Source of the DNA: a virus
Virus record (IMG/VR): IMGVR_UViG_3300044712_000363
Coordinates: 1 to 64,000 of that record
Length of the DNA: 64,000 nucleotides
Strand: one strand, 5' to 3'
The notes beneath the pieces are model-generated. The model did not search any database, was not told the DNA's origin, and saw only the letters and a program-made list of their open reading frames with translations. A program made the position numbers and the translations under genes. Position 1 is the stretch's first letter; each line of letters begins with the position of its first letter. Of the stretch, positions 5,934-42,736 are shown in pieces.

Positions 5934-5943
5934 GTCGCACCCC

Positions 5944-12616: not shown

Positions 12617-12748
12617 ATGCCAGATTTTGATTTTAGCAAAGATTTGGTTATATCAGGTAGTGCTTTGTTAGGGTTTATTATAGTCTTAACTTTTTATGTG
12701 TTAATTGTTAGATGGAAAATTAAGAGATTAAAGAACCCTGCAAATTAA
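12617..12748 (+). CDS. small single-pass membrane protein, 43 aa (moron)
   Basis: ATG preceded by AAGGAAGG with good spacing and by its own promoter. The N-terminus is acidic (MPDFDFSKD), followed by a long hydrophobic helix (residues 11-31) and a basic C-terminal tail (RWKIKRLKN), so N-out/C-in by the positive-inside rule. It is antisense to, and overlaps by four bases, the end of the tailspike gene. Promoter-driven small membrane proteins in late regions are often superinfection-exclusion factors; that role is inference. Confidence 0.65.
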   Translation: MPDFDFSKDLVISGSALLGFIIVLTFYVLIVRWKIKRLKNPAN

Positions 12749-15060
12749 GTGGACACTGCCGCAATCAGTCCAAACCCATTCCAAGTTCCCGGCGTACCCG
12801 AAGAAGTGCATACCCATCCAGTATAACTACCGGACGAAGGTGTGGCATTAATTACTTCCTCCCCTGATTTCCACGTCCCTAAAGTGGGTATAGCATCAGC
12901 AACTAATTTTTCCGAACCGGAATACCTAGCCAATCGGCCAGCATATTCCTGATCGGTCAAAATGATCCCTGCTACATCCATATATGCACCAGCCGCACCA
13001 GGGTTAAATGTTCTAAGCCTGATATACCCTTTCGGCTTATTAATTAAAACCGGATAATCAAACCTAGCATAGTAGCCTAAATCGCCAAAGGATGGCCGCA
13101 TTTCCGTTCCCACCACATTTGCAAAACCATAACCCGGGTAATCTGTTGTGGAAGCTAAAGTAAATTCACTGCTTGCACAGTATAAAGCAGGGTCATAAGT
13201 TCCACCATTTACGAACCTGCTACCATTAAAAAGAATTAAACGTGCGATTTTACCTACCAAATTCGGCGCATAATAAGGAATATCCATATATGCTGCACTC
13301 GAACCGGCACAAGTAAGCCGGATTGAATTGCCTCCAATACCATTATCACCGTTTACCGATAATGTTGCATTAGTCAATTTAACAATATCAGGAATTATAC
13401 TCGTACTCGTGAATGTTCCATTACAAACATAATTCGGTATTTCCTCACAGCAATTGTATTTACTGTCCGTGAACCTCGGCATGTATTCGCCCTCGTAAAC
13501 CGTGCCTTTACTGTATATCTTTGCGCCGGCGGAATAAACATCGGTACCGAAAAATGTGGTATAAGTAGTCGCTGGCTTTGTCACGGTAATTGTTGCCGCT
13601 GAACTGTTAGCAGTAGCCGCCGCCGACATCTGGAAAGTTCCCGCCGTTTCGTTGACTGCTAAAATTGTGGTTCCGGCAGGTATACCCGCACTTTCCACCG
13701 TATAACCTGTCGATAAATTAGAAAGCGAAATAGGTGTTACGGTATCGCTCGTGTCGGTAATATCTCCGGTAATTTCAAAAATCTTTAAGTTAATTCTACC
13801 GTTGTCGTTGTGGATATTTCGGCGTAAATAAGTGTTAATTAAATGTACTTCGCCGGATAGTCCATAAACACCATAGGTCGGATCACAGGTATTGTGAGAC
13901 ATAAAAACGGGGCTACCTGCTCCATGGATATTGCAGTCATTTAGCAACCCACTACCATTTATAGCCACATAACCACCGTTAACATAGACAGGCGTAATCG
14001 AGCCATCTCCCAAATACGTATTTGTAATATTGATTTTCCCGCCTTGGCTATAGATGTGGTACGGGTTTTGCTCCATAATACCATTATGAAGGTTTATGTC
14101 ATTTCCCGAAGTGCCAACATTGGACTTGGACCAAATACCTCTTCCCACACTAGAAAGGGATGTAAAATAAACATTCGTTAATGCGGCGGTACTAGTGGTG
14201 GTACATTCACGGGAAATCGTAATAGTACCTGCTGTCGAATCAATACTATCAACCCTAGAGCCATAGGCAACACCGGGTCCGGAGAACATATCACCAACAC
14301 TGATGCGGCCAAAATATTCCGCTTCTGGCGTTACGACATTACTTCCCGACGAGATAGCAGCGTATAGGTACATTTGCTGGCAACGCCAAACCCGGAATTG
14401 ATTTAAGGCCAAACTACCAAGCGACCCGGAAGATGCATTATCGACCACCAAACCATTTAAACAGCGCATGAATTGCACATTGTTCAAATTATTGTAATAT
14501 GATCCTGTCATGTATTCCATGCCGTGTTCAAGTTCGGTAATGACGGTGTTATTTATCTCCAATCTTTGCGCGTTGCTTCCGGTCTTAATCCCTGTCCCGG
14601 TGTTTTTTGTCGAACCGCTATGTCCGATAGTTAAATTATCAATTATATCCCCTTGTGAAAGCAGGAATACAGGTTTCGACGTGAACGTATCGTCAATTTT
14701 AATGACAGAACTTAGTCCTGTCCGTTCATAGCCGGCACCGCCTCCAAAGCGCATATGGATTCCCTTGTTACTGGTGGCCGGAGTAGTCAGTGTGTCGGTA
14801 ACCCTATAAAAATTAGAGGGAACGGGAAAATCTATGGTGCGTCCGGTACTAATGGCACTTTGTATTGCAGCGGTGTCGTCTGTTGCGCCATCACCAACCG
14901 CACCAAGAGCCCGCACGTCAGTAAACGGCTTTTTTGATATTACATCCAGCACATTTAACTCATTAGTGCCATCCTGTAATTGAGTAATGGTTAAATCCCC
15001 CGGTATGCCTCGCGGGCCTTGTGGTCCTCTCTCGTTGCTCATTATAAAGGTATATGTCAT
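12745..15060 (-). CDS. tailspike / receptor-binding protein, beta-helix
   Basis: 771 residues from ATG with GGGAGGTG upstream. A short collagen-like stretch (GPQGPRGIPGD, about residues 11-21) is followed by a pectate-lyase-superfamily start (FTDVRALGAVGDGATDDTAAI, about 46-66), characteristic of phage tailspikes. A long right-handed beta-helix then runs to about residue 540, and a C-terminal beta-rich carbohydrate-binding-like part follows. Two insertion segments resemble each other (see findings). It probably binds or depolymerises a host surface polysaccharide. It is the last structural gene before lysis. Specificity cannot be read from sequence. Confidence 0.9.
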   Translation of the reverse strand: MTYTFIMSNERGPQGPRGIPGDLTITQLQDGTNELNVLDVISKKPFTDVRALGAVGDGATDDTAAIQSAISTGRTIDFPVPSNFYRVTDTLTTPATSNKGIHMRFGGGAGYERTGLSSVIKIDDTFTSKPVFLLSQGDIIDNLTIGHSGSTKNTGTGIKTGSNAQRLEINNTVITELEHGMEYMTGSYYNNLNNVQFMRCLNGLVVDNASSGSLGSLALNQFRVWRCQQMYLYAAISSGSNVVTPEAEYFGRISVGDMFSGPGVAYGSRVDSIDSTAGTITISRECTTTSTAALTNVYFTSLSSVGRGIWSKSNVGTSGNDINLHNGIMEQNPYHIYSQGGKINITNTYLGDGSITPVYVNGGYVAINGSGLLNDCNIHGAGSPVFMSHNTCDPTYGVYGLSGEVHLINTYLRRNIHNDNGRINLKIFEITGDITDTSDTVTPISLSNLSTGYTVESAGIPAGTTILAVNETAGTFQMSAAATANSSAATITVTKPATTYTTFFGTDVYSAGAKIYSKGTVYEGEYMPRFTDSKYNCCEEIPNYVCNGTFTSTSIIPDIVKLTNATLSVNGDNGIGGNSIRLTCAGSSAAYMDIPYYAPNLVGKIARLILFNGSRFVNGGTYDPALYCASSEFTLASTTDYPGYGFANVVGTEMRPSFGDLGYYARFDYPVLINKPKGYIRLRTFNPGAAGAYMDVAGIILTDQEYAGRLARYSGSEKLVADAIPTLGTWKSGEEVINATPSSGSYTGWVCTSSGTPGTWNGFGLIAAVST

Positions 15061-15074
15061 TCCTAAACACCTCC

Positions 15075-15440
15075 CTATGTTGTAACCGAAGGCGTAACCG
15101 AAAAGGTTCCCTGCCACCAGTATTCGATATTAGTCCCCGTGTTAACTTTGATGTCATGGTAATATGTTTCAACTTGGTCAAAATTTACGCCCGATGTCGG
15201 GAGTGTTGCGGAAATTGAGGACGCAAGAGAAAGGACTAGTTTGTTAGTTGCCGCGGTGCTGCAAGTCGCATTTAACGATGCTATTACCCCGCCGGCAGGA
15301 ATTGATTTTAGATCGCTCTCAAGTACAAATGTTGATATGTCCAAAGCCGCGGTACTTATGCCAATATAACAGTCAATTTCTTCGTAAAAAGACGCCCCTC
15401 GTTTTAATGTGAAATTTACAGTTGCGGGATCTTCTGCCAT
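15075..15440 (-). CDS. tail/baseplate-associated protein, 121 aa
   Basis: Beta-rich protein starting MAEDPATVNFTLKRGASFYEEI, a pattern like the N-terminal domain of BppU/upper-baseplate proteins that join receptor-binding proteins to the tail tip. AAGGGGGG lies upstream of the ATG. It sits between a DUF2793-like protein and the tailspike, consistent with an adaptor. Family assignment tentative. Confidence 0.62.
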   Translation of the reverse strand: MAEDPATVNFTLKRGASFYEEIDCYIGISTAALDISTFVLESDLKSIPAGGVIASLNATCSTAATNKLVLSLASSISATLPTSGVNFDQVETYYHDIKVNTGTNIEYWWQGTFSVTPSVTT

Positions 15441-23752: not shown

Positions 23753-24631
23753 TTAATCGGCGCTATTCGCTACTGCTGTTCCTGCTTTAGTTGAGGAATC
23801 AAGCTGCAGCGACACGCTATTTTGTCTTAAATCTGCGACTGCCCCGGATTCTTCCAGGGATTCGACCTTTGCCCACATTCTCCACACGTCATTTGTACTG
23901 CCCGACGGCTGGATCTCAACCAGGAAAGCATTCCGAGAGAAGATGGAACCGTTCATTTCAAATACGGCGGCGTCCGTCGAATGCGCCGCTAATGTGGTGC
24001 CCCATTCCCCCCGGCTTGCGGAAACGGTATCCTGCGCTGTTGATGTGGTCGTCAGTGCGGTAATCAGGAAAATCTCATCATCAATTCGAATGTTTTTCCC
24101 TACGTTCCCGGCTACCAACCCACTGCCTTTGCTGATTGTAAATGTGACCGGCGTACTTGTGGCCGTCAATGCCTGGGTTAAATCTGCCGTAGTGTCCGTA
24201 AAACCGTAGAACCACGGGTTAGTGAATCCGCCAAGTGTCATAGAACCGTCCAACAAACATACCTGCTTGCGTCGGTATCCGGCATTGTTGTCAAATGTGG
24301 TCCTGTCCTGGGGATCGCCGGATAGGGAAAGTGTATACTCGTTAAATCCGGCCTTTTCTGTTACCGGCAGATAATTGCCGCTGGCCGTTACCGCCCCCGA
24401 CGATGGCACTGTGATTTTGCCGAATAGATAGTTGATGTTTGTCGGTGATGACATGGCCCCGTCAAGGTAAACCGTTGGCGTAACATCCCGGTCAAATAGT
24501 GCCTTCGTAAAATCTGCGATTTGATAAGTAAGGCTTGACGGACTGGCTAATTGGGTAAATGTCTCGGATGTGGAAAATGTCGTGCTGATGCCTGGGGTTT
24601 TGATTGCGCCGTTATAGGCTGCTTGTGCCAA
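23753..24631 (-). CDS. second tail tube-like protein with inserted domain
   Basis: 292 residues, TTG start with GGGGGCGATG upstream. The ends resemble the preceding tail tube protein (GYRRKQVCLLDGSMTLGG; WRMWAKVESLEESGAVADL and QNSVSLQLDSSTK), while a beta-rich region of about 70 residues (VTFTISKGSGLVAGNVGK ...) is inserted. Likely a tube or tube-decoration/terminating protein. Followed closely by the tail chaperone gene. Confidence 0.7.
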   Translation of the reverse strand: MAQAAYNGAIKTPGISTTFSTSETFTQLASPSSLTYQIADFTKALFDRDVTPTVYLDGAMSSPTNINYLFGKITVPSSGAVTASGNYLPVTEKAGFNEYTLSLSGDPQDRTTFDNNAGYRRKQVCLLDGSMTLGGFTNPWFYGFTDTTADLTQALTATSTPVTFTISKGSGLVAGNVGKNIRIDDEIFLITALTTTSTAQDTVSASRGEWGTTLAAHSTDAAVFEMNGSIFSRNAFLVEIQPSGSTNDVWRMWAKVESLEESGAVADLRQNSVSLQLDSSTKAGTAVANSAD

Positions 24632-26017: not shown

Positions 26018-26368
26018 CTAGCCACGGACAGCACCCCCTAAGAACACTTTGCAGTAATCAAACGCGCCTTTCTCATCCACCGCATTCTTCACAGCCAAAG
26101 GCGCATGCCCCGGATCATTGTCCTTATCCTCCCCCGGAACCCATACAAGGAAATCACAATCAATCGGCAATGAACTCGCCAGGATAATCTGACTATGGCT
26201 TACCACTTCCTGCCCGTCCCGGTTCATTACCTTCTGCGTGCGTTCCATCACCCGGGCGGCGTAGGATGAAGCAAAACCGGAAATCGGTTCCCCTGTCTGC
26301 GTGTCGATAGTGTCGGCGGTGGAAATATAGACGGTCTGTTGGCATTGCTTAAACAGTTGATAGTCCAT
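26018..26368 (-). CDS. head-tail connector protein (putative head closure)
   Basis: 116 residues from ATG (MDYQLFKQCQQTVYIS) with GGGG upstream. Beta-rich core with a dipeptide-rich basic loop (MERTQKVMNRDGQEVVSHSQ), the stopper-protein pattern in SPP1/HK97-type modules. Situated between the gp6-like and gp10-like genes. Family assignment comes mostly from position. Confidence 0.68.
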   Translation of the reverse strand: MDYQLFKQCQQTVYISTADTIDTQTGEPISGFASSYAARVMERTQKVMNRDGQEVVSHSQIILASSLPIDCDFLVWVPGEDKDNDPGHAPLAVKNAVDEKGAFDYCKVFLGGAVRG

Positions 26369-26370
26369 AA

Positions 26371-26808
26371 TCAATACCCCTGTGTGCTTAAACGGTCAAT
26401 TGATTCATCATTGCCGGGGAAATCGTGCATACCGCGGGCAAAGGACGGCTGAGTGATACTTGTGTCGTCTGCGGCAGTGTCTTTTTCACTGATAAGTCGG
26501 CCACCCGCCCACATGACCGCGAGTTTACCGCCTTTGCTCCGGTATTTCTTGGCGAGACTCAGGTAATTCTCATGCCGTTTCTGTGCGGCAACCCGTAAGT
26601 CTCCATTTGTGGTATCGACATCCCTGGCAAGTTTGGCAGCAATGGCCTCGCATAGTTCAGCGGCGGCAAGGTATTTGTCGGCGTATTCCGTGGTAATAAA
26701 GGTAATTTCCTCGTCGGTAACAAGTTGATCGTTTGTGTCCGTATCACCAATCAGGAAGCGCACGGCGTCCCTTGTGGAGGTTGAGGGGTCTGTGTAAGTC
26801 CACGTCAT
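26371..26808 (-). CDS. gp6-like head-tail adaptor
   Basis: 145 residues. The start MTWTYTDPSTSTRDAVRFLI and GDTDTNDQLVTDEEITFI are the standard opening of phage adaptor proteins (DxxPLVTDEEI). It is followed by the CEAIAAKLARDVD helix and a glycine-rich C-terminus. GGGGGCGA upstream of the ATG. Binds the portal in related phages. Confidence 0.78.
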   Translation of the reverse strand: MTWTYTDPSTSTRDAVRFLIGDTDTNDQLVTDEEITFITTEYADKYLAAAELCEAIAAKLARDVDTTNGDLRVAAQKRHENYLSLAKKYRSKGGKLAVMWAGGRLISEKDTAADDTSITQPSFARGMHDFPGNDESIDRLSTQGY

Positions 26809-26819
26809 TCAATCGCCCC

Positions 26820-27176
26820 CTACAACGTAACGCCGAAATATTTGCCGGCCATTGTCCCGCCCGTTGATGCGGCAGTGGATGCCTTGGCAATTTGCACTTG
26901 GATGTCGGTGTACATATCTGTAATTTGGAAATAAGTCGAATTACCAACAGTCAAGGAAGCGGACGACAAAACGGTTATATCGTAATTCGTGCTATCAATA
27001 CTACCCATAACCTTATAGGCTATATCCGTTGTGGCAGCGGTCAACACAATAGCTTTTGTTTTGTACGCTTTGCAAGCAAAACTGCCAAGCACTGTAAATG
27101 CTGTGGATGCCGTTGCCGCAGTGGTCCATGAATCATAGGCACCGCCTATGTCGTATTGTTTAGCGAAGGAAGTCAA
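26820..27176 (-). CDS. small structural protein, unknown role
   Basis: 118 residues, TTG start eight bases after GGAGGGG. Alanine/threonine-rich and beta-rich, with regularly spaced hydrophobics (FTVLGSFACKAYKTKAIVL, TDIQVQIAKASTAASTGG). It may be a head decoration or surface protein. Lies between the sialyltransferase-like gene and the connector genes. No family recognised. Confidence 0.6.
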   Translation of the reverse strand: MTSFAKQYDIGGAYDSWTTAATASTAFTVLGSFACKAYKTKAIVLTAATTDIAYKVMGSIDSTNYDITVLSSASLTVGNSTYFQITDMYTDIQVQIAKASTAASTGGTMAGKYFGVTL

Positions 27177-27179
27177 TTA

Positions 27180-28127
27180 TTACCCCTCCTTTATTGGTAC
27201 TCCAAACAAATGTTTACCATCATACATGTTGGTACGGCCAAATAAGCGCGTCTCGTCGGCGTGACTCCATACCCTAATCGCGTACTCGGCATCTTCAATC
27301 GCGCCCTGATATTTAGCCAGGTTGCGGTCCAGTGTGTCAATCTGCGACCATGTGCTTTTCATATGGGACCGGATTTCCTTTAGCCGTTGCGGTGCAAATT
27401 CCGGCGGCATATCTTCGGACTTAATGACGAAATCCTGAAACTGACTGACAAGATTTCGCTTTTCCGCTTCCATTTGTGCCATGCGCCCTTGAAAATCCTG
27501 TGTGCGGGCTTGCATCTTGACTTTGGCCTCATCGTCCTCGACATAGCCATACTGAAACCTGAGTTTGAGCATGTCGGCTTTGGGCGGGATCATGATTTTT
27601 ATGCCTTTCCCTGCCGCAATGCCTAGCCAGTATTCACAGGATGGCCGTTGGTAGCCGTATTCCCTATCAAGCAAGGAATCGGAAGCCATGTCAATACCGT
27701 AAATACGAATCTCCTTATACCCCATATGGATGGCCAGCGCCGTCATGTACGAACAGGAATTATTCAGATAGTTGCCATACTGATAGGATTCCATGATTTC
27801 TTCAAGCGGATATTCCACGGAAAAAGGAATGTCGTCGTAATGTTGGTGCATGTAAACCGGGAGTTTGGCATCACGTAACCATTGCAGGTGATTCGCACTC
27901 CGGGGAGTTTTCTCCACCAGTTCCCGGACGTGCATCTCAAACCACCGGTCAGCTTTAGGGATCTGGGTGTATAAGTCGTTCATACCCCAGAATTCAAAAT
28001 CCGGATTGTCCCAGGGAACATCAGCCAACGTATATGGGCAATAGCCCAGGATAATAACCTTGTCTTTTTTTCGCCGTAAATCTAATTTTGATTCCGTCTT
28101 TTTATTTAATACCGCGAGTTCACTCAT
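27180..28127 (-). CDS. putative sialyltransferase-like (GT42/Maf, DUF115-fold) protein
   Basis: 315 residues, SD GGAGGG. The Rossmann N-terminus VIILGYCPYTLADVPWDNPD with WGMNDLY resembles the CMP-binding opening of GT42 sialyltransferases and Maf/DUF115 proteins (VI-AG-GPSL--ID----D-F--N). NNSCSYMTALAIHMGYKEIR followed by IYGIDM mirrors their conserved SG-YMC-AIALGYKEI---GIDF strand-helix. The C-terminal 120 residues form a long coiled coil plus a beta tail. It is embedded among head genes, and a CMP-nonulosonate pathway lies 7 kb upstream in the same phage. A virion or host-surface glycosyltransferase is inference; the fold similarity is by eye. Confidence 0.6.
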   Translation of the reverse strand: MSELAVLNKKTESKLDLRRKKDKVIILGYCPYTLADVPWDNPDFEFWGMNDLYTQIPKADRWFEMHVRELVEKTPRSANHLQWLRDAKLPVYMHQHYDDIPFSVEYPLEEIMESYQYGNYLNNSCSYMTALAIHMGYKEIRIYGIDMASDSLLDREYGYQRPSCEYWLGIAAGKGIKIMIPPKADMLKLRFQYGYVEDDEAKVKMQARTQDFQGRMAQMEAEKRNLVSQFQDFVIKSEDMPPEFAPQRLKEIRSHMKSTWSQIDTLDRNLAKYQGAIEDAEYAIRVWSHADETRLFGRTNMYDGKHLFGVPIKEG

Positions 28128-28150
28128 CTCTTTATTCCCTCCAAAAATAT

Positions 28151-28477: not shown

Positions 28478-28562
28478 GTATTGCCGCCTCCTTTGCCGCG
28501 TCTATGCGCTCTTGGCGTTTAGTGTCGCGCTCTTCTTTGGTTTTGGGACGTTTATTACTCAT
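28461..28562 (-). CDS. small highly charged protein, 33 aa
   Basis: MSNKRPKTKEERDTKRQERI..., one amphipathic, lysine/arginine/glutamate-rich helix. The ATG has GGAGGGG nine bases upstream and overlaps the stop of the LamG-like gene. Such short charged peptides recur in phage head loci. Its 3-prime end holds the ribosome binding site of the next gene. Confidence 0.6.
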   Translation of the reverse strand: MSNKRPKTKEERDTKRQERIDAAKEAAILAHSI

Positions 28563-29248
28563 ATGGTTATTCCCCTCCCTGCCATTGTACGGCGTAATAC
28601 TCTATGGTCGTGGAGGCATTCGGCATCAGACAAAACACGGTTATAAATTAACATCGAATATACAACCCCAACAAGATTGTACAGTCCGCCAGTGATGCCT
28701 ATAATCCATGTTCCCTTTGCGCCCCAAGTGTTTGTATATGCCAGGTCCCCGCTTTTAGTTGTGTTTTGGAACACATGCGCGGTTCCACCAGAATAACGCA
28801 GACAATGTATATATGGCGTGTTTACCGCCACGGTTAACCCCGTGACGATGTTTGCACTTGATGCGACACCCGCATTTATTGCGCCGGTTGTTGTCGCGGC
28901 AAAGATATAACTGCGTGAATTCGTCCCTCCATTTGCTCCAAATACGGCTTTATTCGATGCTAATGATGTAGCCTTCCAAGCAACGATAATCGTCGCATTC
29001 TCTGTAATTAATACAGGTGTCGTGGTGTAATCATCGCTATCATTAGTAAGTCCGCCATTAGCGAATGAAGGATCATTTGTGTCTACTCCCGCCGTACTGC
29101 CTAACTGGCCATGGTTTCCATTGCCACTCCGGTCAATCAACACTTGCCCTGTCTGGCCCGTCAATATCTGCCATCCAGGATCATACCAAGCGATTAAACC
29201 GTTACTCACCAACCCTTGATAATATAAATGAGGTGACAATATTGGCAT
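28559..29248 (-). CDS. LamG/concanavalin-like virion surface protein
   Basis: 229 residues from the ATG with AGGTGG upstream. The jelly-roll features of phage LamG/Laminin_G_3 domains are present: GLIAWYDPGWQI, then DRSGNGNHGQLGS, IIVAWKATSLASNKAVFGA and the final GVVYSMLIYNRVLSDAE. It could bind carbohydrate on the capsid surface. Lies among head decoration-like genes. Confidence 0.78.
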   Translation of the reverse strand: MPILSPHLYYQGLVSNGLIAWYDPGWQILTGQTGQVLIDRSGNGNHGQLGSTAGVDTNDPSFANGGLTNDSDDYTTTPVLITENATIIVAWKATSLASNKAVFGANGGTNSRSYIFAATTTGAINAGVASSANIVTGLTVAVNTPYIHCLRYSGGTAHVFQNTTKSGDLAYTNTWGAKGTWIIGITGGLYNLVGVVYSMLIYNRVLSDAECLHDHRVLRRTMAGRGITI

Positions 29249-29257
29249 ATCATCCAC

Positions 29258-29641
29258 CTACTTACATATCAGATATAGCGTTCTAGTCGCAGTCTGGTTT
29301 ACGGCGGCAGTCGATGTCCCGCTACGCAATTGGATAAATCGTAACGGAGCAAGAGCCAGAGCAATATCACCATTCAGCGATACGACACGGTTTCCGGTGC
29401 TTACCGTCGCCTGAACCTCTACGCCAGAACCATCATATACGGCAAAAAATGATCCGCTTGACGCACGGGCCGCAGTAAATGAAATATTGGCGGCGTCCCA
29501 GCCTCCGGTAGACATTTCGATTGCGAAGGTGTTGAAGCCCTGAACATCCACCGTTCCTGACAGGCTGGCCCCGCTGGAGATGGTAACGGTTTTGACGGAA
29601 TCAGCTAACAGATGCGGGCCTATTTTAAACATTTGCGACAT
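29258..29641 (-). CDS. putative head decoration protein, 127 aa
   Basis: Beta-rich, serine/alanine/threonine-rich protein (SSGASLSGTVDVQGFNTFAI, FTAARASSGSFFAVYDG). GGAGGTGG precedes the ATG. Composition and position next to the LamG-like gene suggest a virion surface protein. No recognised family. Confidence 0.6.
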   Translation of the reverse strand: MSQMFKIGPHLLADSVKTVTISSGASLSGTVDVQGFNTFAIEMSTGGWDAANISFTAARASSGSFFAVYDGSGVEVQATVSTGNRVVSLNGDIALALAPLRFIQLRSGTSTAAVNQTATRTLYLICK

Positions 29642-29690: not shown

Positions 29691-30005
29691 TTATGCTGTT
29701 GAGATTATTACCCAGTCCGATGTACTTGCGGCAAACAGTACCTTGCCGGACGCCGTAGATCGAGCGAAAAAACCTATGGATGTCGGCGCTGTGCCCGTGG
29801 ATACATTCGGCAGTTTAAACGATGCCGCACTACTCAATGCTACAGCCCCAGTGAAGTTTGCCGCGCCTCCGGTCAATGTGCCCGTCACGGTAAAACCGGA
29901 ACTTGCGACAATCGTTGCGTTTGCGGTGCTTTTCAGCGTGGCCCCGCTTAAAAATTCAAAAACATTATGGATTATGGTCCCGCGTACCTTGTCGGTTATG
30001 CCCAA
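29691..30005 (-). CDS. putative virion fibre/decoration protein, 104 aa
   Basis: TTG start with GGGGGTGG upstream. The sequence has repetitive short beta segments (SGATLKSTANATIVASSG, FTVTGTLTGGAANFTGAVAL) like head or tail fibre shafts. It follows the small gene after the major capsid gene. Function inferred from position only. Confidence 0.6.
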   Translation of the reverse strand: MGITDKVRGTIIHNVFEFLSGATLKSTANATIVASSGFTVTGTLTGGAANFTGAVALSSAASFKLPNVSTGTAPTSIGFFARSTASGKVLFAASTSDWVIISTA

Positions 30006-30248
30006 TTATGCCACCCCCTGTTTTTTGGATTTGGACTGAGGAGGTTTTTCATTTTCTTCGGTGGCTTTAATGGCCTCCTCAATCAGTCGAAAATCTTCTT
30101 CGGAATTAGGGCGGCGTAGATACCGCCCTTCTTCCAAGCCGCGCACATTGCGGAAAATTGATGTGTCAACCGGTTGTCCCGGACTTAGCCGGCCATCGTT
30201 GCTGACAAACGTTTTTACGACAATTCTATAATCATTAATCGTAGGCAT
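30006..30248 (-). CDS. small capsid-associated protein, 80 aa
   Basis: Starts at an ATG overlapping the capsid-gene stop. A beta-strand opening (NDYRIVVKTFVSNDGRLSPG, a pattern seen in phage proteins that follow the coat gene) is followed by a charged helix and a lysine-rich tail. Possibly a head accessory or connector factor. Confidence 0.65.
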   Translation of the reverse strand: MPTINDYRIVVKTFVSNDGRLSPGQPVDTSIFRNVRGLEEGRYLRRPNSEEDFRLIEEAIKATEENEKPPQSKSKKQGVA

Positions 30249-31228
30249 TAAGTACTCGCCCCCGAGAACAGATAACCGAGGTCAGTGGCAATGACTTTCA
30301 TGTCATAAGCCATTTCTCCCTCGATCCTGTCACATTTGGTCAGGTCATTACGAATCCGGCTAATGGTCACACCATTGGCATTTCTGCCGCCGTATCCAGA
30401 CCATGCGAAGATATAGCCGGCGGTAGGAGCCAGCAGTGAAGGAGTGGGTGCGGTATAGCAAAGCAGAGCATATTTGCCGAGTACTTGACTGAAACTGTTG
30501 GCCGCGCCCTCGACGCCGGTGTTGTAAACTGCATCCATGACGACAAGTTTCTGCAAACCGAATACTTGAGCGACAAGGTCCTGGGTGATGATGCCTTTTT
30601 GGGTGTACTTAATACGTTCCAAAATGTCGGGGTGGTCTTTAAGCACGTCCCATACTTCGCCGCCCATAACAAGGGCATTGGGTTTATAACCGGTATTGGT
30701 TTTGATGGTTCTTGCGCCCGTGGTAACATCTTTTACGGGATCGGATGTGGCGTAATTGGACCATGCAGTGAAATCCGTGCCGCCGGTGTACGTGGTGTCC
30801 CATGTTCCTGAACTCAGGAAGTGGGTAACAAAATCACGTTCGCGGCGAAGCAGCAGCCGCTGCGTGACGAACTCGGTGGCGTCCCGGTCACTGTTGATTC
30901 CTGCGTCCTCATTGGCCCTGACCATGTCTGGAATGTCTTTATGAATACCATATACTGCGCAGGAATAGGTGTCGGTGGAATTCAGCGTAAAGCCGGACCC
31001 TACAGTCTCGCCGGCAGGCGGACGGACATCTGCCTCATCTCTAAACCAGCACCCTTTCGGATAATTGAAGTAGCGGTCAGTCTGTTTCTGCACCGGTACG
31101 ACGGGGAAAATATCTGCAGCCCTATATTCGGACTGATTTTGAATATAGGCAACGGATATATTGGTTAGCGGCGTATTGACATGCACGTCGCTTGCGGTAG
31201 GTTGACTTTTGCGAATCGCAAATTGCAT
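30248..31228 (-). CDS. major capsid protein
   Basis: 326 residues beginning MQFAIRKSQPTASDVHVNTP, then NISVAYIQNQSEYRAADIF, the opening of a lambda GpE-like coat family seen in GTA-tailed phages. Later features are the E-loop region (PPAGETVGSGFTLNSTDTYS), the helix ATEFVTQRLLLRRERDFV and the C-terminal A-domain (EGEMAYDMKVIATDLGYLF). ATG with AAGGAG upstream. It follows the decoration protein gene. No N-terminal delta domain is apparent, in line with a separate scaffold gene. Confidence 0.91.
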   Translation of the reverse strand: MQFAIRKSQPTASDVHVNTPLTNISVAYIQNQSEYRAADIFPVVPVQKQTDRYFNYPKGCWFRDEADVRPPAGETVGSGFTLNSTDTYSCAVYGIHKDIPDMVRANEDAGINSDRDATEFVTQRLLLRRERDFVTHFLSSGTWDTTYTGGTDFTAWSNYATSDPVKDVTTGARTIKTNTGYKPNALVMGGEVWDVLKDHPDILERIKYTQKGIITQDLVAQVFGLQKLVVMDAVYNTGVEGAANSFSQVLGKYALLCYTAPTPSLLAPTAGYIFAWSGYGGRNANGVTISRIRNDLTKCDRIEGEMAYDMKVIATDLGYLFSGAST

Positions 31229-32867: not shown

Positions 32868-33476
32868 TTACTCTTCAATTATTTCACGGCGACCCTTGCC
32901 GCCAATGGAGAACGAGTTATAATGGCCCCCTTTAACGAGATCCCATGCATCAGATTTTGTTATGTGATAGCCTACCCACCAGCCACAGCAAGGTAATATC
33001 CCTTCCGGTATCCCCAAAGCGGCGATTTTCTCCTTAGTAAAAACCATGGATTCCACGAGATCGCCAATTAATTCTTCGTGGTTTTCCCCAGCTTTTCGGA
33101 ATTTGAGAACGTGATTATATGCGGCCCTTTCGAGTTCATTTGGTTCAATTATGTCATTGTCAGCATCCACCACAACGTTGCCCTGTGCATCCGTTGCTAT
33201 GCTCAACCATCCAAACACCATCTGCATGTCCTGGTCAACCTTCGATATTTCAAACTCCCGCCGCCATTCCTCACTCTTCTTGGCCCAGTTCCCTTCCGTG
33301 TCCTGATGATACCCGGCGTTTTCTAATGCTCCATATGCCTGGGCAAAGGCCGTGGAATCGGTTTCGCCTTCCTGGGCTATGACATCGTTGAATACCTCGC
33401 GGAATATACTCTGCGCTGCCGTGGGCATTGCTTCGCGCACTCGCGGGGGAAGGTCACTATTCGTTTTATAGGGCAA
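32868..33476 (-). CDS. ChaB-XkdF prohead protease
   Basis: 202 residues from a TTG start eight bases after AGGAGG. This gives the exact ChaB opening (PYKTNSDLPPRVREAMPTAA, then QSIFREVFNDV), supporting the start. The XkdF domain follows from about residue 80 (QMVFGWLSIATDAQGNVVVD, ELERAAYNHVLKFRKAGE, and VGYHITKSDAWDLVKGGHYN). ChaB-XkdF fusions act as prohead maturation proteases. The catalytic residues are probably His (in NHEEL or YHIT) and Ser (in FSIGG). A terminator lies upstream. Confidence 0.87.
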   Translation of the reverse strand: MPYKTNSDLPPRVREAMPTAAQSIFREVFNDVIAQEGETDSTAFAQAYGALENAGYHQDTEGNWAKKSEEWRREFEISKVDQDMQMVFGWLSIATDAQGNVVVDADNDIIEPNELERAAYNHVLKFRKAGENHEELIGDLVESMVFTKEKIAALGIPEGILPCCGWWVGYHITKSDAWDLVKGGHYNSFSIGGKGRREIIEE

Positions 33477-33502
33477 ATTGATCACCTCCTAAAATAGAAA
33501 AA

Positions 33503-34409: not shown

Positions 34410-34628
34410 TTAGAAATCAGTTATAACTTTTAGAAACTTACCTTCCATTGTAAACTTAAAGGTAGTCCATTCTTCGCTTGCTTCTTCTGATTTTTCGCCT
34501 CGGATAAAATATAATTCTAATGTGCGTTCAAAGTCTAAATGCGCTAAGTTATTTACAATTTCATAGCTTATCCCTAATTCGTCGAATAAGTCTCTGACTT
34601 TTTTTAAATCAGATTTAAAATCAAGCAC
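34410..34628 (-). CDS. small hypothetical protein at the end of the sugar operon
   Basis: 72 residues, GTG start with GGAGG upstream, overlapping the end of the radical SAM gene by eight bases. Acidic alpha/beta protein (FDELGISYEIVNNLAHLDFE). It is the last gene of the accessory cassette. Family unknown; the pattern of a small ORF next to each enzyme recurs throughout this cassette. Confidence 0.7.
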   Translation of the reverse strand: MLDFKSDLKKVRDLFDELGISYEIVNNLAHLDFERTLELYFIRGEKSEEASEEWTTFKFTMEGKFLKVITDF

Positions 34629-36060
34629 GGCTCTTGGCCTCCTCTAACGCTTTACGCGCAAAATCTAAATGTGGGTACATGTCCACTACAGCCCCAAACA
34701 ACCTGCAAGCCTTGGCCGGACAATTTTCCGTGTTCCAATTATGCAAGAAATTGGTTTCAATGTTTGCCCTTTCCTTTGCTTCAGTCAAGTATTCATGGGT
34801 AAACGCTTGGTTCTTCAGCATGGGACTATAAAAAGAGCGTAGCGGATCGAAATCGTTCGGATCAAGCCACCCTCTGTCTATACATGTTTGGTATATCTCG
34901 GTTCCCGGTAACGGGCTGAATACGAAGAAATGGCTCCAATCCAGTTCCAGGGACTTTGCAAACTCAATAGTATTTTCTATGTCAACCTTTCCTTCGCCGG
35001 GAAATCCCAAAATAAAAAAGCCCCGGACATCCATGCCGAGACTTCTTATTTTGTCCACCATCGGCTTTACCTTCGCCAGATTGATCGGTTTTTTCATGAT
35101 CTTAGTACAAATGTCCTGGTTCCCGTTTTCGATGGCAAGGGAGACAGAATAACAGCCGGATGCGGCCATTTTTTCAAGGAGTTCGTCGTCGAGGCAAGAG
35201 ACAGCCATGCCGCTGGGGACGGTCCAGGTTAAACCGTAGTTTCGTTCAATCAGTCCGTCGAAGATTTGTATGGCCCGCGCTCTGTCGCCGGTGAGATTGT
35301 CGTCCTCGAAGTGGATCTCGCGTATGCCGTATTGGTTGACGAGAAAGTCTATTTCGGATAGGACGGACACGGCGGAACGGTATCGCGGCTTTTTGCCCCA
35401 GTGATTGGCAATACTGCAGAAGGAACACGCGAATTTGCATCCTCGGGAAGTGATCATGGTCATAAAGGGTTTTTGCTTGTACCCTGCATGGCCGACGGCA
35501 AGGTCAAAGTATTTTTGCATGGGGAGAAGATGATAGGCAGGGAAAGGAATGGTGTCGAGGTTTTCAATGGGTCGCGGTCTTGAAAATCCGTGGTTTATGA
35601 TGTCTAATATTGCTTGTTCCCCGTCGCCGCGAATGACGTAATCTACCGAATAGCCACGAAACTTCAATATTTTTTCTTTGTTGGTTCCTGCCCATGCTCC
35701 GCCGATAACTGTGCTAATATTTCTATTAACTTCTTTTGCTAGGCCGCAAACATATACGGCATCTCGTTCCATAGCCGAGAAAAGGCATGATACCCCAACA
35801 CAATCAGGATTATATTCCCGGATTCTTTTTATTATTTCGTGGTCCGAAAGGCCATAGCGAATTGTATAACCTTTTTTTTGAGTTATTCCCTGCAAATCCC
35901 CCTCAATCAAAGCATCGAGAATCCTTACCTCATGCCCTGCTTTTTCGAGTGCTGCGGCGACGTAGGCAAGTCCAAGGGGAATGAATGGGGAAACTCGGAC
36001 GATAGATGCGTCAAAACCCACCGGCCTTGTGACCGGCGGGGATATAAGTAACACTTTCAC
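34621..36060 (-). CDS. B12-binding radical SAM enzyme
   Basis: 479 residues, GTG start after GGAGG. N-terminal cobalamin-binding-like Rossmann domain (MKVLLISPPVTRP; PLGLAYVAAALEKAGHEVRI; TVIGGAWAG), then the radical SAM domain with the [4Fe-4S] motif C208-x3-C212-x2-C215 (SRGCKFACSFCSI). Later parts are IHFEDDNLTG, GFFILGFPGE and SPLPGTEIYQ, all usual for this class. Such enzymes (class B) often methylate sp3 carbons, including sugars and antibiotics. Placement at the end of a sugar pathway suggests it modifies the nonulosonate or its carrier; the substrate is unknown. A classical DxHxxG cobalamin motif is not evident. Confidence 0.9.
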   Translation of the reverse strand: MKVLLISPPVTRPVGFDASIVRVSPFIPLGLAYVAAALEKAGHEVRILDALIEGDLQGITQKKGYTIRYGLSDHEIIKRIREYNPDCVGVSCLFSAMERDAVYVCGLAKEVNRNISTVIGGAWAGTNKEKILKFRGYSVDYVIRGDGEQAILDIINHGFSRPRPIENLDTIPFPAYHLLPMQKYFDLAVGHAGYKQKPFMTMITSRGCKFACSFCSIANHWGKKPRYRSAVSVLSEIDFLVNQYGIREIHFEDDNLTGDRARAIQIFDGLIERNYGLTWTVPSGMAVSCLDDELLEKMAASGCYSVSLAIENGNQDICTKIMKKPINLAKVKPMVDKIRSLGMDVRGFFILGFPGEGKVDIENTIEFAKSLELDWSHFFVFSPLPGTEIYQTCIDRGWLDPNDFDPLRSFYSPMLKNQAFTHEYLTEAKERANIETNFLHNWNTENCPAKACRLFGAVVDMYPHLDFARKALEEAKSRA

Positions 36061-36064
36061 GGAG

Positions 36065-37201
36065 TTAGCCTCCTAAAAGAATTTTCTTAAAAAGTAAATT
36101 CGGGTCCTCGATATTCTCCTTAATCACCTGAACTATTCTCTTGCTGGGCAAATCGTCAGGCAATACCATCCCGCCGTCTGCAGATCCTAGTGCTTCTTTT
36201 ATGTGTTGCACAAGTTCATCGACATCATATACAGTATTAATAACCGACGGATAGTGTTGCCGGCCACTTTGCCTACTACCTATATTTATGGTTCTGTGTC
36301 CCGTGAACGGGTATTCAATCACTCCGCAGGAAGAATTGCCTATCATGAATGCAGATTGCTGCATCAGGCTTTGGAATAGTTGGTTTTCGAGATTTGTGAA
36401 TGCTTTGCAGTTGTCGTGTGTCCAGCAATATTCATTTATGGCATTGATAATGGTATTTGATTCTAACTCGGCGCATGGTTGCACAAAAACAGTCTGTTGG
36501 TTTATCCTATCCAACGCGCTAAGAATAGGATTAATTTGACCCTCTACACTTAATGATTGAACGGTCAAACATCTTTTATCTTGATAGTTTACTTTTGGCT
36601 CAATCGAAGGGTAATAGATGCACAACGCCGTCGGAATGCTTAAATCAAGCCCTATGGCCTTGCTAGTTTCCTCCAGGGATAGTTTCGGAGTCCGGGCGAC
36701 GTTCTCAAGTCCGCATTGGCCTACGATGTGGACTCGCTCCGGTTGTTCCCCGGATTGAATGAGGTTTTTCGCGGCATAATGGTCGCTGACTAGGTGCAGA
36801 TGGGCAAAACGACTTAAAGCATAGCGGTATAAGTTGTCCCGGCTGCCGTCTGTGATTTCGCCGTCACCGATTAATGCAATAGGTATGTCGCGAAGATTTG
36901 CGGCCAGGGCAATCGGAACCAGCTCCACCCTGTCTCCGTTTAGGATGAGCATGTCGGGTTTTATATCCAACAATGCTCCCGAAACATCTCGCAATACATG
37001 CGAGAGGTTAAAACAAGCCGTTTGAAAGTCTCTAGCATCATAATTGCGAATATAATATGCCGGCATATCAATCTCGCCCTTGGGTATCCATCCAGTGATT
37101 AAAGATAGGTCAAACTCCGGATCATCACGAAGGGCCTGTATGACATAGCGGGAGGCGTTTAGTTCGCTTCTTTGCGTTGTGACCCATGCTATTTTTTTCA
37201 T
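36065..37201 (-). CDS. hydrolysing UDP-GlcNAc-type 2-epimerase (NeuC/LegG family)
   Basis: 378 residues. GT-B fold with the NeuC signatures: KKIAWVTTQRSELN opening, ILNGDRVELVPIALAANL (family GDR-E), PIALIGDGEITDGSRDN (in place of the usual HGGE), HLVSDHYAAKNLIQSGEQP and MIGNSSCGVIEYPFTGHRTI (GNSSSG). NIGSRQSGR is also conserved. It would convert the UDP-HexNAc intermediate to free ManNAc-type sugar. The HGGE to GDGE change may alter substrate or rate. Overlaps the next small gene by four bases. Confidence 0.88.
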   Translation of the reverse strand: MKKIAWVTTQRSELNASRYVIQALRDDPEFDLSLITGWIPKGEIDMPAYYIRNYDARDFQTACFNLSHVLRDVSGALLDIKPDMLILNGDRVELVPIALAANLRDIPIALIGDGEITDGSRDNLYRYALSRFAHLHLVSDHYAAKNLIQSGEQPERVHIVGQCGLENVARTPKLSLEETSKAIGLDLSIPTALCIYYPSIEPKVNYQDKRCLTVQSLSVEGQINPILSALDRINQQTVFVQPCAELESNTIINAINEYCWTHDNCKAFTNLENQLFQSLMQQSAFMIGNSSCGVIEYPFTGHRTINIGSRQSGRQHYPSVINTVYDVDELVQHIKEALGSADGGMVLPDDLPSKRIVQVIKENIEDPNLLFKKILLGG

Positions 37202-37497
37202 GCTTCACCATCTAATACTTTTTGCTTAAACTTAGTTAAAAACTTATGTAGTTCGCTTTTTGTTGTAACCATTATATCCATGCCATACGTTAATCTATTT
37301 TCATTCTCGAATACCGATTTAGTAACAGTGAAAGTATTGTATATACCTTCTGCTATTTTATAAGCTATATTGCTTTTTGCTGTGTTTTCATGTTTTCTTG
37401 CCTCTTCTTCTGTGTATTCGTTATATCTATCAAGATCGATATCGCAATAAGTTTCTATGGACAAAAAATGTTTATCCAAGTCAATATTTTTAAACAT
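37198..37497 (-). CDS. small hypothetical protein in sugar cassette, 99 aa
   Basis: ATG overlaps the stop of the acyltransferase gene (TAATG) with GGGGGAG upstream. Helical, charged (DLDRYNEYTEEEARKHENTA) with a C-terminal KFLTKFKQKVLDG. No family recognised. One of several small ORFs lying between pathway enzymes. Confidence 0.7.
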   Translation of the reverse strand: MFKNIDLDKHFLSIETYCDIDLDRYNEYTEEEARKHENTAKSNIAYKIAEGIYNTFTVTKSVFENENRLTYGMDIMVTTKSELHKFLTKFKQKVLDGEA

Positions 37498-38306
37498 TAA
37501 ACGCTCCCCCTCGCCGTGTAATATTCCAATTCCAAATTCCCGAATTTCTTCTTAAACCGGTGCAACGAGTCATCCTCAGCAAGTCCCCCGCCGAAATGTA
37601 CTAACTTGACTCCTCGCCCTTGGTAATAGTGGCATGCCTCACTGATTAACCTTTCCATCGGGTACAGGTGGGCATATTCGATGTCCATGCCGCTGAATTG
37701 GTAGTGGGCCGTATATTTGTCGTGCAGGAAGGTTGCGGCGGCGATTATTTTTTCATCACAGTCCATTATTGTGAATAAATCAATACTATCTTTAAGATGA
37801 GCGAACATTCTTGAGAAATAAATTAGATTATATTTATAACAACGTTCAGTTTGATTTCTTTCCATAGTTTCAATATAAAGCCTATGAAAATTAAAAAATG
37901 GGTTGCGGTCATCTGGAAATTCATATAATAGTTCGTATCCGTGAAATATTCTATCGTCACAATCAGATTCCATATTCTTCTTAATCGATGACTTTGTCCC
38001 ATGCCCCCACCGGATCGGCATCGATAAGTCCCGAGCCACGGTATGGCGGCTAAATACAGCGTTCGGAAAATCAATATGGTTTCTCAGCCAGGGCGTAAAC
38101 CGGATAAGGTATTCTTTGGCCCCTGCCGCCTTTAAATCGTTGATAAAGTCGAAAGGGCAAAAGTCCTGAGTCGGCCCACCGTAGGAGTTATTTGGCGTGT
38201 AGGCCAGTCCGTCACGCAATAAAAGAGGCATGCCGCCAGCCGTTATAATTTCGGCCCCGTCATGCCATGCCTGGAACTGCATATATTGTTTTGTTTGATA
38301 GATCAT
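37497..38306 (-). CDS. FemAB/GNAT_6-like acyltransferase
   Basis: 269 residues from ATG after AGGAG. A GNAT-type fold is suggested by the N-terminal GGMPLLLRDGLAYTPNNSYG, central FFNFHRLYIETMERN, the strand FTIMDCDEKIIAAATFLHD and the C-terminal GVKLVHFGGGLAEDDSLHRF with KKKFG. The latter (HFGGG---D-L--FKKKFG) is characteristic of FemAB-like proteins in polysaccharide and sialic acid loci. It may N-acetylate the 4-amino sugar, the step of PseH/LegH, which otherwise lacks a candidate here. Substrate unproven. Confidence 0.8.
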   Translation of the reverse strand: MIYQTKQYMQFQAWHDGAEIITAGGMPLLLRDGLAYTPNNSYGGPTQDFCPFDFINDLKAAGAKEYLIRFTPWLRNHIDFPNAVFSRHTVARDLSMPIRWGHGTKSSIKKNMESDCDDRIFHGYELLYEFPDDRNPFFNFHRLYIETMERNQTERCYKYNLIYFSRMFAHLKDSIDLFTIMDCDEKIIAAATFLHDKYTAHYQFSGMDIEYAHLYPMERLISEACHYYQGRGVKLVHFGGGLAEDDSLHRFKKKFGNLELEYYTARGSV

Positions 38307-38310
38307 GGAG

Positions 38311-38577
38311 TCACGCTCCTTTCAATGTATAAAGCTTCTCGACCCTAGCCAATAGTGCCGCAGGACTGCTATTATAAAGCAATCCGTCGCATTCCATTAT
38401 TGCATCTATTAGCAGTTTCATTTTGGCTTGATACCACCATTCCCAGATCATGAACAATTCGCCGGTGGGACTGTAGTTCCAAATTTCATCTGCCGTTGGA
38501 TTCGTGCCGTCATTTTTGATCAGTACCTTTGACTTTTCGATGATTGTACAGACTCTTTTTAATGTCAAGCCTTTCAT
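38311..38577 (-). CDS. small hypothetical protein in sugar cassette, 88 aa
   Basis: ATG with AAGGAG upstream. Helical with a tryptophan-rich centre (NYSPTGELFMIWEWWYQAK). No family recognised. Lies directly upstream of the acyltransferase gene with a 4-bp gap. Confidence 0.68.
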   Translation of the reverse strand: MKGLTLKRVCTIIEKSKVLIKNDGTNPTADEIWNYSPTGELFMIWEWWYQAKMKLLIDAIMECDGLLYNSSPAALLARVEKLYTLKGA

Positions 38578-38592
38578 GCGGAAGCATGCTCC

Positions 38593-38784
38593 TTATTGTA
38601 TTTTCCGGTAGTTAATAATAACAGTAGATCTTCCATTGGGCTTTCTCTCTATGTACCCACGATCGCGCCCTAGAACACTAATACCTTCCTCTATTGATAC
38701 ATGGGTAATCCCGATTTCTCCTGACTCCGCCTGTTCAATTATTTTCTTTAAACACTCAATGGCTTTGGGATCAAATTCATCCAC
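38593..38784 (-). CDS. small hypothetical protein in sugar cassette, 63 aa
   Basis: GTG start with AAAGGAG nine bases upstream, 4 bp after the synthase stop. Acidic N-terminal helix (KAIECLKKIIEQAESGEIG) and a basic C-terminus (RDRGYIERKPNGRSTVIINY). It is not the missing SAF domain of the synthase. Unknown function. Confidence 0.68.
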   Translation of the reverse strand: MDEFDPKAIECLKKIIEQAESGEIGITHVSIEEGISVLGRDRGYIERKPNGRSTVIINYRKIQ

Positions 38785-38788
38785 AGAG

Positions 38789-39598
38789 TCAAACTCCTTT
38801 CAACCTATACAAATCCCTAACCTGCAATTCCCTTTCACACGGCTGTTTGATACCATTCCCCATGGCCGCTTCAACATTTCTGATCGCCTGCACCATTTGC
38901 TTAAACTCGCCGGGCTCTAATGATGCCGCATGATCCGGGCCGGGAAGGTTCCTGTTCAATGTCAGATGTTTCTCGATAACCGTTGCGCCAAGTGCCACGG
39001 CTGCAATCGGGATTTCAATGCCGGGGGTATGGTCGGAGAGGCCAGTATACCATGTAAATTCATCTTTCATTTGCTTTATTGCGTTAAGATTGACTTCTTC
39101 GTACTTGGTAGGGTATAAAGAAATGCAATGTAATAACTGCACCCATCGAACGCCCGGACGGCATAAAAGATCAAGTGCTTCTCTAATTTCTTTTTTACTG
39201 CCCATACCCGTTGATAAGATAATTGGTTTGTTTTTAGTTGCAACCTTCTCCAAAAATGATTTATTTGTCAGATTTCCGCTGCCAATCTTTATGATTTCTA
39301 TGTCCATCTCATCAACCAGGAAATCAAGGCTTTCCTCGTCGTCCGGTGTGGATAGGAACATGATCCCGATGTCGTCGCAGTATTGCTTCACATTGCGGAA
39401 GAAGTCGAACGGCATTTCCAAGTCCTTTAGCATTTGATACCGGGGATGGTCGGGGGGGAGGATTTTATCGGTGACCCACGTTTGGAACTTGGCCGCTGAA
39501 GCCCCGGCTTCTTTGGCTAGATCACAAAGGGTGTATGCCATATCGAGGGATTTATTAAAATTTACGCCTATTTCTGCAATTATAAAAGTGTTCGGCAA
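38789..39598 (-). CDS. NeuB-family nonulosonic acid synthase lacking the SAF domain
   Basis: 269 residues, TTG start eight bases after AAGGAG. TIM-barrel with NeuB features: IAEIGVNFNKSLD, AAKFQTW, MFLSTPDDEESLDFL, KIGSGNLTNKSFLEKVA, LSTGM, LLHCISLYPT, and GLSDHTPGIEIPIAAVALGA with VIEKHLTLNRNLPGPDHA. The two metal-ligand histidines (SDHT, EKHLT) are present. It condenses PEP with a ManNAc-type sugar to give a nine-carbon acid. It ends at LKGV, where the C-terminal SAF (antifreeze-like) domain of about 60-70 residues should begin, so it is short relative to the usual 330-350. The role of SAF in capping the active site makes this notable. Confidence 0.92.
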   Translation of the reverse strand: MPNTFIIAEIGVNFNKSLDMAYTLCDLAKEAGASAAKFQTWVTDKILPPDHPRYQMLKDLEMPFDFFRNVKQYCDDIGIMFLSTPDDEESLDFLVDEMDIEIIKIGSGNLTNKSFLEKVATKNKPIILSTGMGSKKEIREALDLLCRPGVRWVQLLHCISLYPTKYEEVNLNAIKQMKDEFTWYTGLSDHTPGIEIPIAAVALGATVIEKHLTLNRNLPGPDHAASLEPGEFKQMVQAIRNVEAAMGNGIKQPCERELQVRDLYRLKGV

Positions 39599-39599
39599 T

Positions 39600-39806
39600 T
39601 TAATCGCTCCTTTTCAATGTTTGCCATTCTCCGTTGCCAATACGGTATTTCGTATGCTTTCGTATCTTTTGCATCATCCAATCCACGGCTTCTTCGGGTT
39701 TAACGATTCTTAAAAGAACCAAAAGCGCCATAAACCAGCTGAACAATTTGAGTCTTATTGTCGGGCTTTTTATAGTCATTTTGAGAGTCGCATCTTTTAT
39801 AGTCAT
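39600..39806 (-). CDS. small membrane protein in sugar cassette, 68 aa
   Basis: ATG with GAGGAG upstream, overlapping the end of the cytidylyltransferase gene by four bases. A basic N-terminus, one hydrophobic helix (LKLFSWFMALLVLLRIV, residues 19-35) and a basic C-terminus (QKIRKHTKYRIGNGEWQ). Might anchor the pathway at the membrane; no family recognised. Confidence 0.7.
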   Translation of the reverse strand: MTIKDATLKMTIKSPTIRLKLFSWFMALLVLLRIVKPEEAVDWMMQKIRKHTKYRIGNGEWQTLKRSD

Positions 39807-40360
39807 TGCAATCTACTCCTCATCAAAGCCTCGGCTATCCGCCAATCAATTTCCTCGTCTATATCCACCGAATTCTCCTTGCCCATCAGATACAAAAAAG
39901 AACTGTCGTTATATAAACGTCCAGTCCGTCGAATAAAGTCTGTTGTGGCCGCGTATATGGCCCCATTTTGGATGTAAGTCCCGTCTATGGGACTGTAGAC
40001 CGATACAAGGGATTCAGTCATGTATCCTGCGGCCTCCCGGATGTTCTCCGGCGTGCGTAATGGCGATGTGCATTGCAGGAGCATAATTGAGTCTACCAGA
40101 TATTTATCCGCTACCCACCGGACGACATCAACATTGGTCGATATGTCGGAAGCCATAGGTTGGGGAATGACTATTGCTCCGTAACTACGAGCAATGGCCC
40201 CTATTTCAGCATCTTCGGTGGATACAAATATTTCGTCGAATACTCCGCTGTCCTGGGCCTGTTTTATGGCCCAATAGATCAACGGCATGCCGCAGAATTC
40301 GCGGATATTTTTGCGGGGGATTCTCTTTGAACCACCTCTGCACGGAATAAGTGCATACAT
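39803..40360 (-). CDS. CMP-nonulosonate cytidylyltransferase (NeuA/PseF/LegF-like), short form
   Basis: 185 residues. The CTP-binding motif IPCRGGSKRIPRKNI is at residues 5-19. MLLQCTSPLRTPENI, NGAIYAATTDF and VDIDEEIDWRIAEAL are the family motifs for ribose/triphosphate and acid sugar binding. Members are usually about 225-235 residues; here a middle segment of about 40 is missing between SVYSPIDG and TYIQNGAIY. It activates the nonulosonic acid with CTP. ATG after GGAGG. It is coupled to the 29-aa ORF (TAATG). Confidence 0.9.
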   Translation of the reverse strand: MYALIPCRGGSKRIPRKNIREFCGMPLIYWAIKQAQDSGVFDEIFVSTEDAEIGAIARSYGAIVIPQPMASDISTNVDVVRWVADKYLVDSIMLLQCTSPLRTPENIREAAGYMTESLVSVYSPIDGTYIQNGAIYAATTDFIRRTGRLYNDSSFLYLMGKENSVDIDEEIDWRIAEALMRSRLQ

Positions 40361-40449
40361 TACTTATACCTCCGGTCAACCCAGTGCATAAAGCCAAGTA
40401 AAACAAAAAACGAAACGATGATAATTGTTATCGTCATTCGAAGTTCCAT
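40360..40449 (-). CDS. small membrane peptide, 29 aa
   Basis: ATG overlaps the aminotransferase stop (TAATG) and the stop overlaps the cytidylyltransferase start (TAATG). One hydrophobic helix (TITIIIVSFFVLLGFMHW) flanked by basic residues. Its position coupled on both sides makes translation plausible. Unknown function. Confidence 0.5.
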   Translation of the reverse strand: MELRMTITIIIVSFFVLLGFMHWVDRRYK

Positions 40450-41546: not shown

Positions 41547-41553
41547 AAGCGTT

Positions 41554-41790
41554 TTACGCCTCCTTAATGCACTTGGTAACTTCGATGGTTTCTCCTGTTA
41601 CTTTACAAATAAGTTTGCAGGGAATAATAATCGGTTCTGTTATTCCAAGCGTAAATGTCGAACTTATTTCAGAAAATGAACATTCAAGGCATTTCTTGAC
41701 TGACATCCCGCATTCGACTTCTTCCATAAATTCTTTAATTTCTTTGTACACCTTTATTGCTGTAAGTGTAGGCAGATCAGAGTCCGTCAT
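41554..41790 (-). CDS. small hypothetical protein in sugar cassette, 78 aa
   Basis: ATG with GGGGAGG upstream and overlapping the dehydratase stop by four bases. Four cysteines (ECGMSVKKCLECSF; CKLICKV; TKCIKEA) and beta-strand-rich C-terminal half. No family recognised. Confidence 0.7.
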   Translation of the reverse strand: MTDSDLPTLTAIKVYKEIKEFMEEVECGMSVKKCLECSFSEISSTFTLGITEPIIIPCKLICKVTGETIEVTKCIKEA

Positions 41791-42725: not shown

Positions 42726-42736
42726 TTTATGCCTCC

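Follow-up and report, generated by a model that had tools for sequence, protein, structure and literature searches.

A phage head-gene protein with a predicted sialyltransferase fold and a putative role in transferring nonulosonates to virion proteins

A gene lying among the head genes of a temperate tailed phage encodes a protein that is most likely a CMP-nonulosonate (CMP-NulO) transferase, a reading based on its predicted fold, on the co-occurrence of its family with NeuB and CMP-synthetase genes and on a repeated gene order, the linkage to the donor being genomic. The whole explanation, which we hold to be probable, is that this phage-specific enzyme would transfer the sugar made by the phage's own cassette to Ser/Thr residues of virion surface proteins. 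The window, i.e. the whole stretch of DNA analysed, comprises 64 kb of a 66,065-base IMG/VR virus record, and is assigned to a temperate tailed phage because PHROGs profiles find terminase, portal, MuF, protease, capsid and connector genes together with a serine integrase at the left. The gene lies where the original prediction had placed it, with an ATG start at 28127, and is taken as real since residues are conserved over 58 dereplicated sequences, the relatives being 23-45% identical. Its features are as follows:

27180-28127, minus strand: sialyltransferase-fold protein of 315 aa, putative CMP-nonulosonate transferase
28137-28142: ribosome-binding site GGAGGG, 9 bases upstream of the ORF
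27543-28064, minus strand: predicted Rossmann-like GT42/GT29-type catalytic domain, aa 22-195, pLDDT mostly >90
27267-27530, minus strand: two long helices (helical hairpin or coiled coil) in the predicted model, aa 200-287
27930-27932, minus strand: near-invariant His66, candidate catalytic base
27645-27662, minus strand: near-invariant EY..QR motif (E156, Q160, R161)
27690-27722, minus strand: strand GYKEIRIYGID, common to CstII (GYKEIYLSGID) by sequence alignment

The AlphaFold model of the window protein (pLDDT 86, pTM 0.71) consists of a Rossmann-like domain followed by two long C-terminal helices, and all eight of its PDB matches with E<=0.001 are GT42 CstII/CstI structures (best 2.8e-6). 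A distant family member of about 30% identity (L048), modelled separately with pLDDT 88.6, gave sialyltransferases at ranks 1-10, comprising GT42 enzymes and the human GT29 enzyme ST8SiaIII. The TM-scores of both models against sialyltransferases were moderate, at about 0.3-0.47, and SteA and thiamin pyrophosphokinase appeared lower down in both lists. The structure search for a nucleotide-sugar transferase fold that had been proposed as a check thus placed sialyltransferases at the top for two family members, which confirms a sialyltransferase-like nature at the level of the predicted fold. The best structural matches, CstI and CstII of Campylobacter (PDB 2p2v, 1ro7; PF06002) and a Pasteurella enzyme (9c08), have the Rossmann domain in common with the window protein, and CstII additionally shares the stretch S-x-x-YM-x-A-x-AI-x-x-GYKEI-x-x-x-GID. 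The GT42 resemblance first noticed in 'YMTALAIHMGYKEI..GID' is therefore real and strong by predicted structure but weak by sequence: the Pfam CST-I profile (PF06002) scored E=0.0021 and 18 bits against a cut-off of 25, and matched only 2 of 47 family members at E<=0.1. A search of 198 Bacteroidota genomes with PF06002 gave no match, so that these genomes supplied no natural GT42 set.

Residues were mapped using a CstII reference sequence that agrees with 1ro7 at 259/259 residues. The sequence match is restricted to about 33 residues, and beyond the anchor at aa 119-151 the mapping is tentative because the HMM alignment is of low confidence there. The catalytic base of CstII is His188 (PMC4202792), for which the window protein has no counterpart; it contains no His within aa 135-254, a region that instead holds the EY..QR motif, and for this reason it is not a classical GT42 member. 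CstII Asn31, at the CMP site, aligns with window Asn50 (an Asn kept in only 28 of 58 family members), Arg129 lands in an alignment gap, and Asn51 aligns near His66, which may serve as an alternative catalytic base. The retention of His66, Glu156, Gln160 and Arg161 across 23-45% identity suggests an active site. Also unlike the GT42 enzymes, the protein carries an additional C-terminal helical hairpin and is phage-encoded within head modules.

Maf proteins combine a CstII-like (PF01973) central domain with a helical domain and modify Ser/Thr residues of flagellin (PMC11339370). The window protein has the same succession of a CstII-like and an alpha-helical domain, is tied to CMP-Leg/Pse genes and, as proposed here, would use Ser/Thr protein acceptors; it nevertheless lacks a significant match to PF01973 (E=0.24, 11.6 bits against a cut-off of 34.6) and the N-terminal Maf domain, and its gene stands among phage head genes with no flagellin. 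Maf structures were absent among the 50 listed fold matches of either model, so the Maf resemblance originally suggested found no support and the likeness is one of functional analogy only. The model supports a GT42/GT29-like protein by fold, and filing it under GT42 or Maf fails, given the sub-threshold Pfam scores, the missing GT42 catalytic His and the lack of a Maf domain match.

Scanning viral contigs with the window protein as a lone query returned nothing, and alignments of two or more sequences were needed; an alignment of the window protein with its relative from Microcystis phage Mvi-Yong1342-1 retrieved 76 viral loci, dereplicated to 57 relatives plus the window protein. Near-invariant residues across the 58 sequences are G28, P38, W47, H66, G144, E156, Q160, G169, Y193 and G275, the last (95%) belonging to a conserved Gly-Ala close to the end of the helical hairpin. 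The Microcystis phage protein (L002; PP496355.1 34781-35584), whose gene adjoins that for the terminase small subunit, is the sole relative among annotated phages; its annotation as 'type 11 methyltransferase' has no support in the present data. None of 47 members had a PHROGs match, they fall outside every Pfam family at threshold, and a plasmid search found none. One pattern scan of a species-level genome collection yielded three family loci, and 1 of 198 Bacteroidota genomes matched, namely the seed itself, on a contig that also bears NeuB. The family thus looks rare in cellular genomes and, judged by sequence, is apparently uncatalogued and phage-restricted; literature searches found no earlier description, though subscription papers lay largely outside their coverage. 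Two unannotated Caudovirales proteins in BFVD, A0A6J5RL04 and A0A516M9U3, have the same predicted fold (E=5.8e-18 and 4e-11) and are probably members. One member (L067:3601-4221) is broken directly after the conserved EY of EY..QR by an intein-start-like sequence (CVDPETRVLT...); inteins often sit in active sites. On a NeuB-bearing viral contig (L198; G329:7-483 and 642-1322) the transferase gene occurs twice in tandem.

A CMP-nonulosonate pathway had already been noted in the same phage, and the cassette was confirmed at 36065-42770, with a further enzyme at its end:

34621-36060, minus strand: B12-binding radical SAM enzyme at the cassette end, possibly for sugar tailoring
36065-37201, minus strand: NeuC/LegG-type hydrolysing UDP-sugar 2-epimerase, above the NCBIfam NeuC cut-off
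37497-38306, minus strand: FemAB/GNAT acyltransferase, probable sugar N-acyltransferase
38789-39598, minus strand: NeuB-family nonulosonate synthase, 269 aa, apparently a short form of the family
39803-40360, minus strand: CMP-nonulosonate cytidylyltransferase (PseF/NeuA type), 185 aa, apparently a short form of the family
40449-41546, minus strand: LegC/PseC-type aminotransferase
41787-42770, minus strand: UDP-GlcNAc 4,6-dehydratase (PseB type)

Dehydratase, aminotransferase, acyltransferase, hydrolysing epimerase, NeuB synthase and CMP-transferase are all present, several of them scoring under equivalog cut-offs. By sequence, a legionaminic-type sugar is suggested by the NeuC-type epimerase and the LegC-like aminotransferase, and a pseudaminic-type one by the PseB-like dehydratase. 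The cassette is placed between the MuF gene (45234-46103) and the protease gene (32868-33485). Between it and MuF lies a DUF559/VSR-like endonuclease gene (44357-45241), which may be a trace of the cassette's entry into the head module.

The nonulosonate link of the transferase family is well supported. NeuB was present in 16 of 48 family-bearing viral records and in none of 48 records fetched with the window's terminase, control phages whose host and habitat may differ from those of the family-bearing set; after dereplication the counts were 15/41 versus 0/39 (p=1.3e-5), and with the records limited to those of 35 kb or longer 9/16 versus 0/12 (p=0.003). A CMP-sugar synthetase likewise occurred in 16 of the 48 family-bearing records, 15 in common with NeuB plus L023, and its gene lies 14 bp (L023), 194 bp (L048) and 728 bp (L077) from the transferase gene. 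In the reverse test the family was found in 11 of 50 NeuB-bearing viral contigs versus 1-2 of 48 controls. Used alone as a query on viral contigs, the window NeuB gave nothing, a multi-sequence alignment being needed, and a different, less sensitive search of the annotated phage collection with it matched 3 of 50,697 records. NDP-sugar pyrophosphorylase (PF00483) was found in 0/48 family-bearing records, on which ground an enrichment for sugar metabolism in general was rejected. Mapped onto the family tree, where some NeuB absences will stem from contig fragments, NeuB presence changes label 13 times, at least 8 of these forced by starred branches; the linkage is therefore recurrent, and its inheritance by one clade was rejected. 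A DegT aminotransferase was detected in just 6/48 family-bearing records, so that most carriers have partial pathways or sialic-type NeuB/NeuA pairs. Roughly half of the family-bearing records that reach 35 kb lack NeuB, and so does the complete Microcystis phage genome; such carriers have to rely on a donor from the host or on a different substrate. The host may supply them with CMP-sugars, or the family may accept a wider range of donors.

In the window the capsid gene is followed by small beta-rich proteins, the LamG-like protein, the transferase and then the connectors:

30248-31228, minus strand: major capsid protein (phrog_1005)
29691-30005, minus strand: 104 aa protein, 29% Ser+Thr, candidate acceptor
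29258-29641, minus strand: 127 aa beta-rich protein, 23% Ser+Thr, candidate acceptor
28559-29257, minus strand: LamG-like virion protein (PF13385 E=1.1e-5, just under the cut-off), candidate acceptor
26820-27176, minus strand: 118 aa protein directly downstream of the transferase, 27% Ser+Thr, candidate acceptor
26018-26808, minus strand: head-tail connector-type proteins (phrog_1732, phrog_3881)

These flanks agree with those first described, LamG-like and small beta/Ser-Thr-rich proteins on one side and connectors (phrog_3881, phrog_5) on the other. Two loci at about 30-40% identity (L020 and L022) share the order MuF, CMP-NulO genes, protease, scaffold, capsid, transferase, connector, as determined by tblastn with the window genes, the CMP-synthetase of L022 being placed by profile; the order capsid, transferase, connector recurs in five more (L008, L019, L042, L049 and L059). 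Reciprocal co-occurrence and this conserved synteny both uphold the link to CMP-nonulosonates claimed at the outset. Across the family, Ser and Thr are enriched in the ORF immediately upstream of the transferase (18.9% versus 14.5%, p=1.3e-4) and not in the downstream one; a high Ser/Thr content is common in structural proteins in any case, and the window's own directly upstream gene is not rich (11%), others close by being so.

From gene position and neighbours we infer virion-protein modification as the best reading, and by analogy with Maf the best reading of its chemistry would be O-glycosylation of virion surface proteins; glycosylation of the capsid is plausible. UDP-GlcNAc would undergo 4,6-dehydration, amination, acylation, hydrolytic epimerisation and condensation to a nonulosonic acid of legionaminic or pseudaminic type, which would then be activated with CTP to CMP-nonulosonate. 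The transferase, a sialyltransferase-type Rossmann domain with a C-terminal helical hairpin, would use this donor to glycosylate Ser/Thr on virion surface proteins, the probable acceptors being the beta-rich and LamG-like proteins adjoining the capsid gene, and the hairpin may hold it to the acceptor or prohead. The mycobacteriophages Che8, Corndog and Myrna decorate their own capsid and tail proteins using phage-encoded glycosyltransferases (Freeman et al. 2023, via PMC12363180 and PMC12691614), and the location of a transferase gene within or beside structural genes holds for the window phage too. Other transferases act there, the portions of these accounts consulted mention no nonulosonate pathway, and the modification was detected experimentally in those phages.

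The acceptor could instead be a host surface molecule, such as a cell-wall or S-layer glycan, whose modification would alter the lysogen or infected cell, e.g. by blocking superinfection. Surface glycans are the normal targets of GT42 enzymes and the phage, with its serine integrase, is temperate, yet the position of the transferase between capsid and connector genes is conserved in several phages, cassette and transferase are both part of the late head operon, the window genes tested included no flippase, polymerase or further glycosyltransferase, and the protein has a helical hairpin rather than a membrane anchor; we therefore regard a host acceptor as unlikely. A target in the tail, such as a fibre, a spike or another tail protein, in place of a head protein appears quite unlikely, since wherever the order could be resolved the transferase gene lies on the capsid side of the connectors, although tail proteins of the window (23753-24631 and 12745-15117) are also Ser/Thr-rich (20-25%) and L033 and L053 have NulO genes that continue into tail genes.

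The least probable of the readings weighed here is that of a protein devoid of transferase activity, either a Rossmann nucleotide-binding protein of the wider MptE/thiamin pyrophosphokinase/SteA group or a degenerate sialyltransferase serving as a structural or assembly factor. It would accommodate the missing GT42 His, the lower-ranking SteA and thiamin pyrophosphokinase matches and the many carriers without NeuB, but is at odds with the four residues kept over 23-45% identity (His66, Glu156, Gln160, Arg161) and with the specific linkage to CMP-nonulosonate genes.

Nonulosonates on flagella, capsules and S-layers shape the recognition of bacteria by phages and animals. The pairing of this family with activated-sugar genes in dozens of unrelated phages suggests that many phages may cover their own particles with sugars resembling sialic acid, as bacteria do their flagella. 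If so, the puzzling neuB/neuA genes of viral genomes would be explained, a further enzyme family would be gained whose catalytic site is apparently different, and there would be a small enzyme for sialylating proteins that an established E. coli assay could test. A wider proposal, to which we give an even chance, is that this large phage-specific family, having a catalytic site of its own (His66 / EY..QR), serves as a general machine for virion O-glycosylation with CMP-nonulosonates, through which many lineages would sialylate the capsid surface during assembly, some by a complete pathway that they encode themselves and others with host CMP-sugars. Elsewhere in the window (5042-7236), beside a helicase-like gene, a ParB-like protein adjoins a PAPS-reductase/DUF3440 protein, forming an IbrB/IbrA-like pair.
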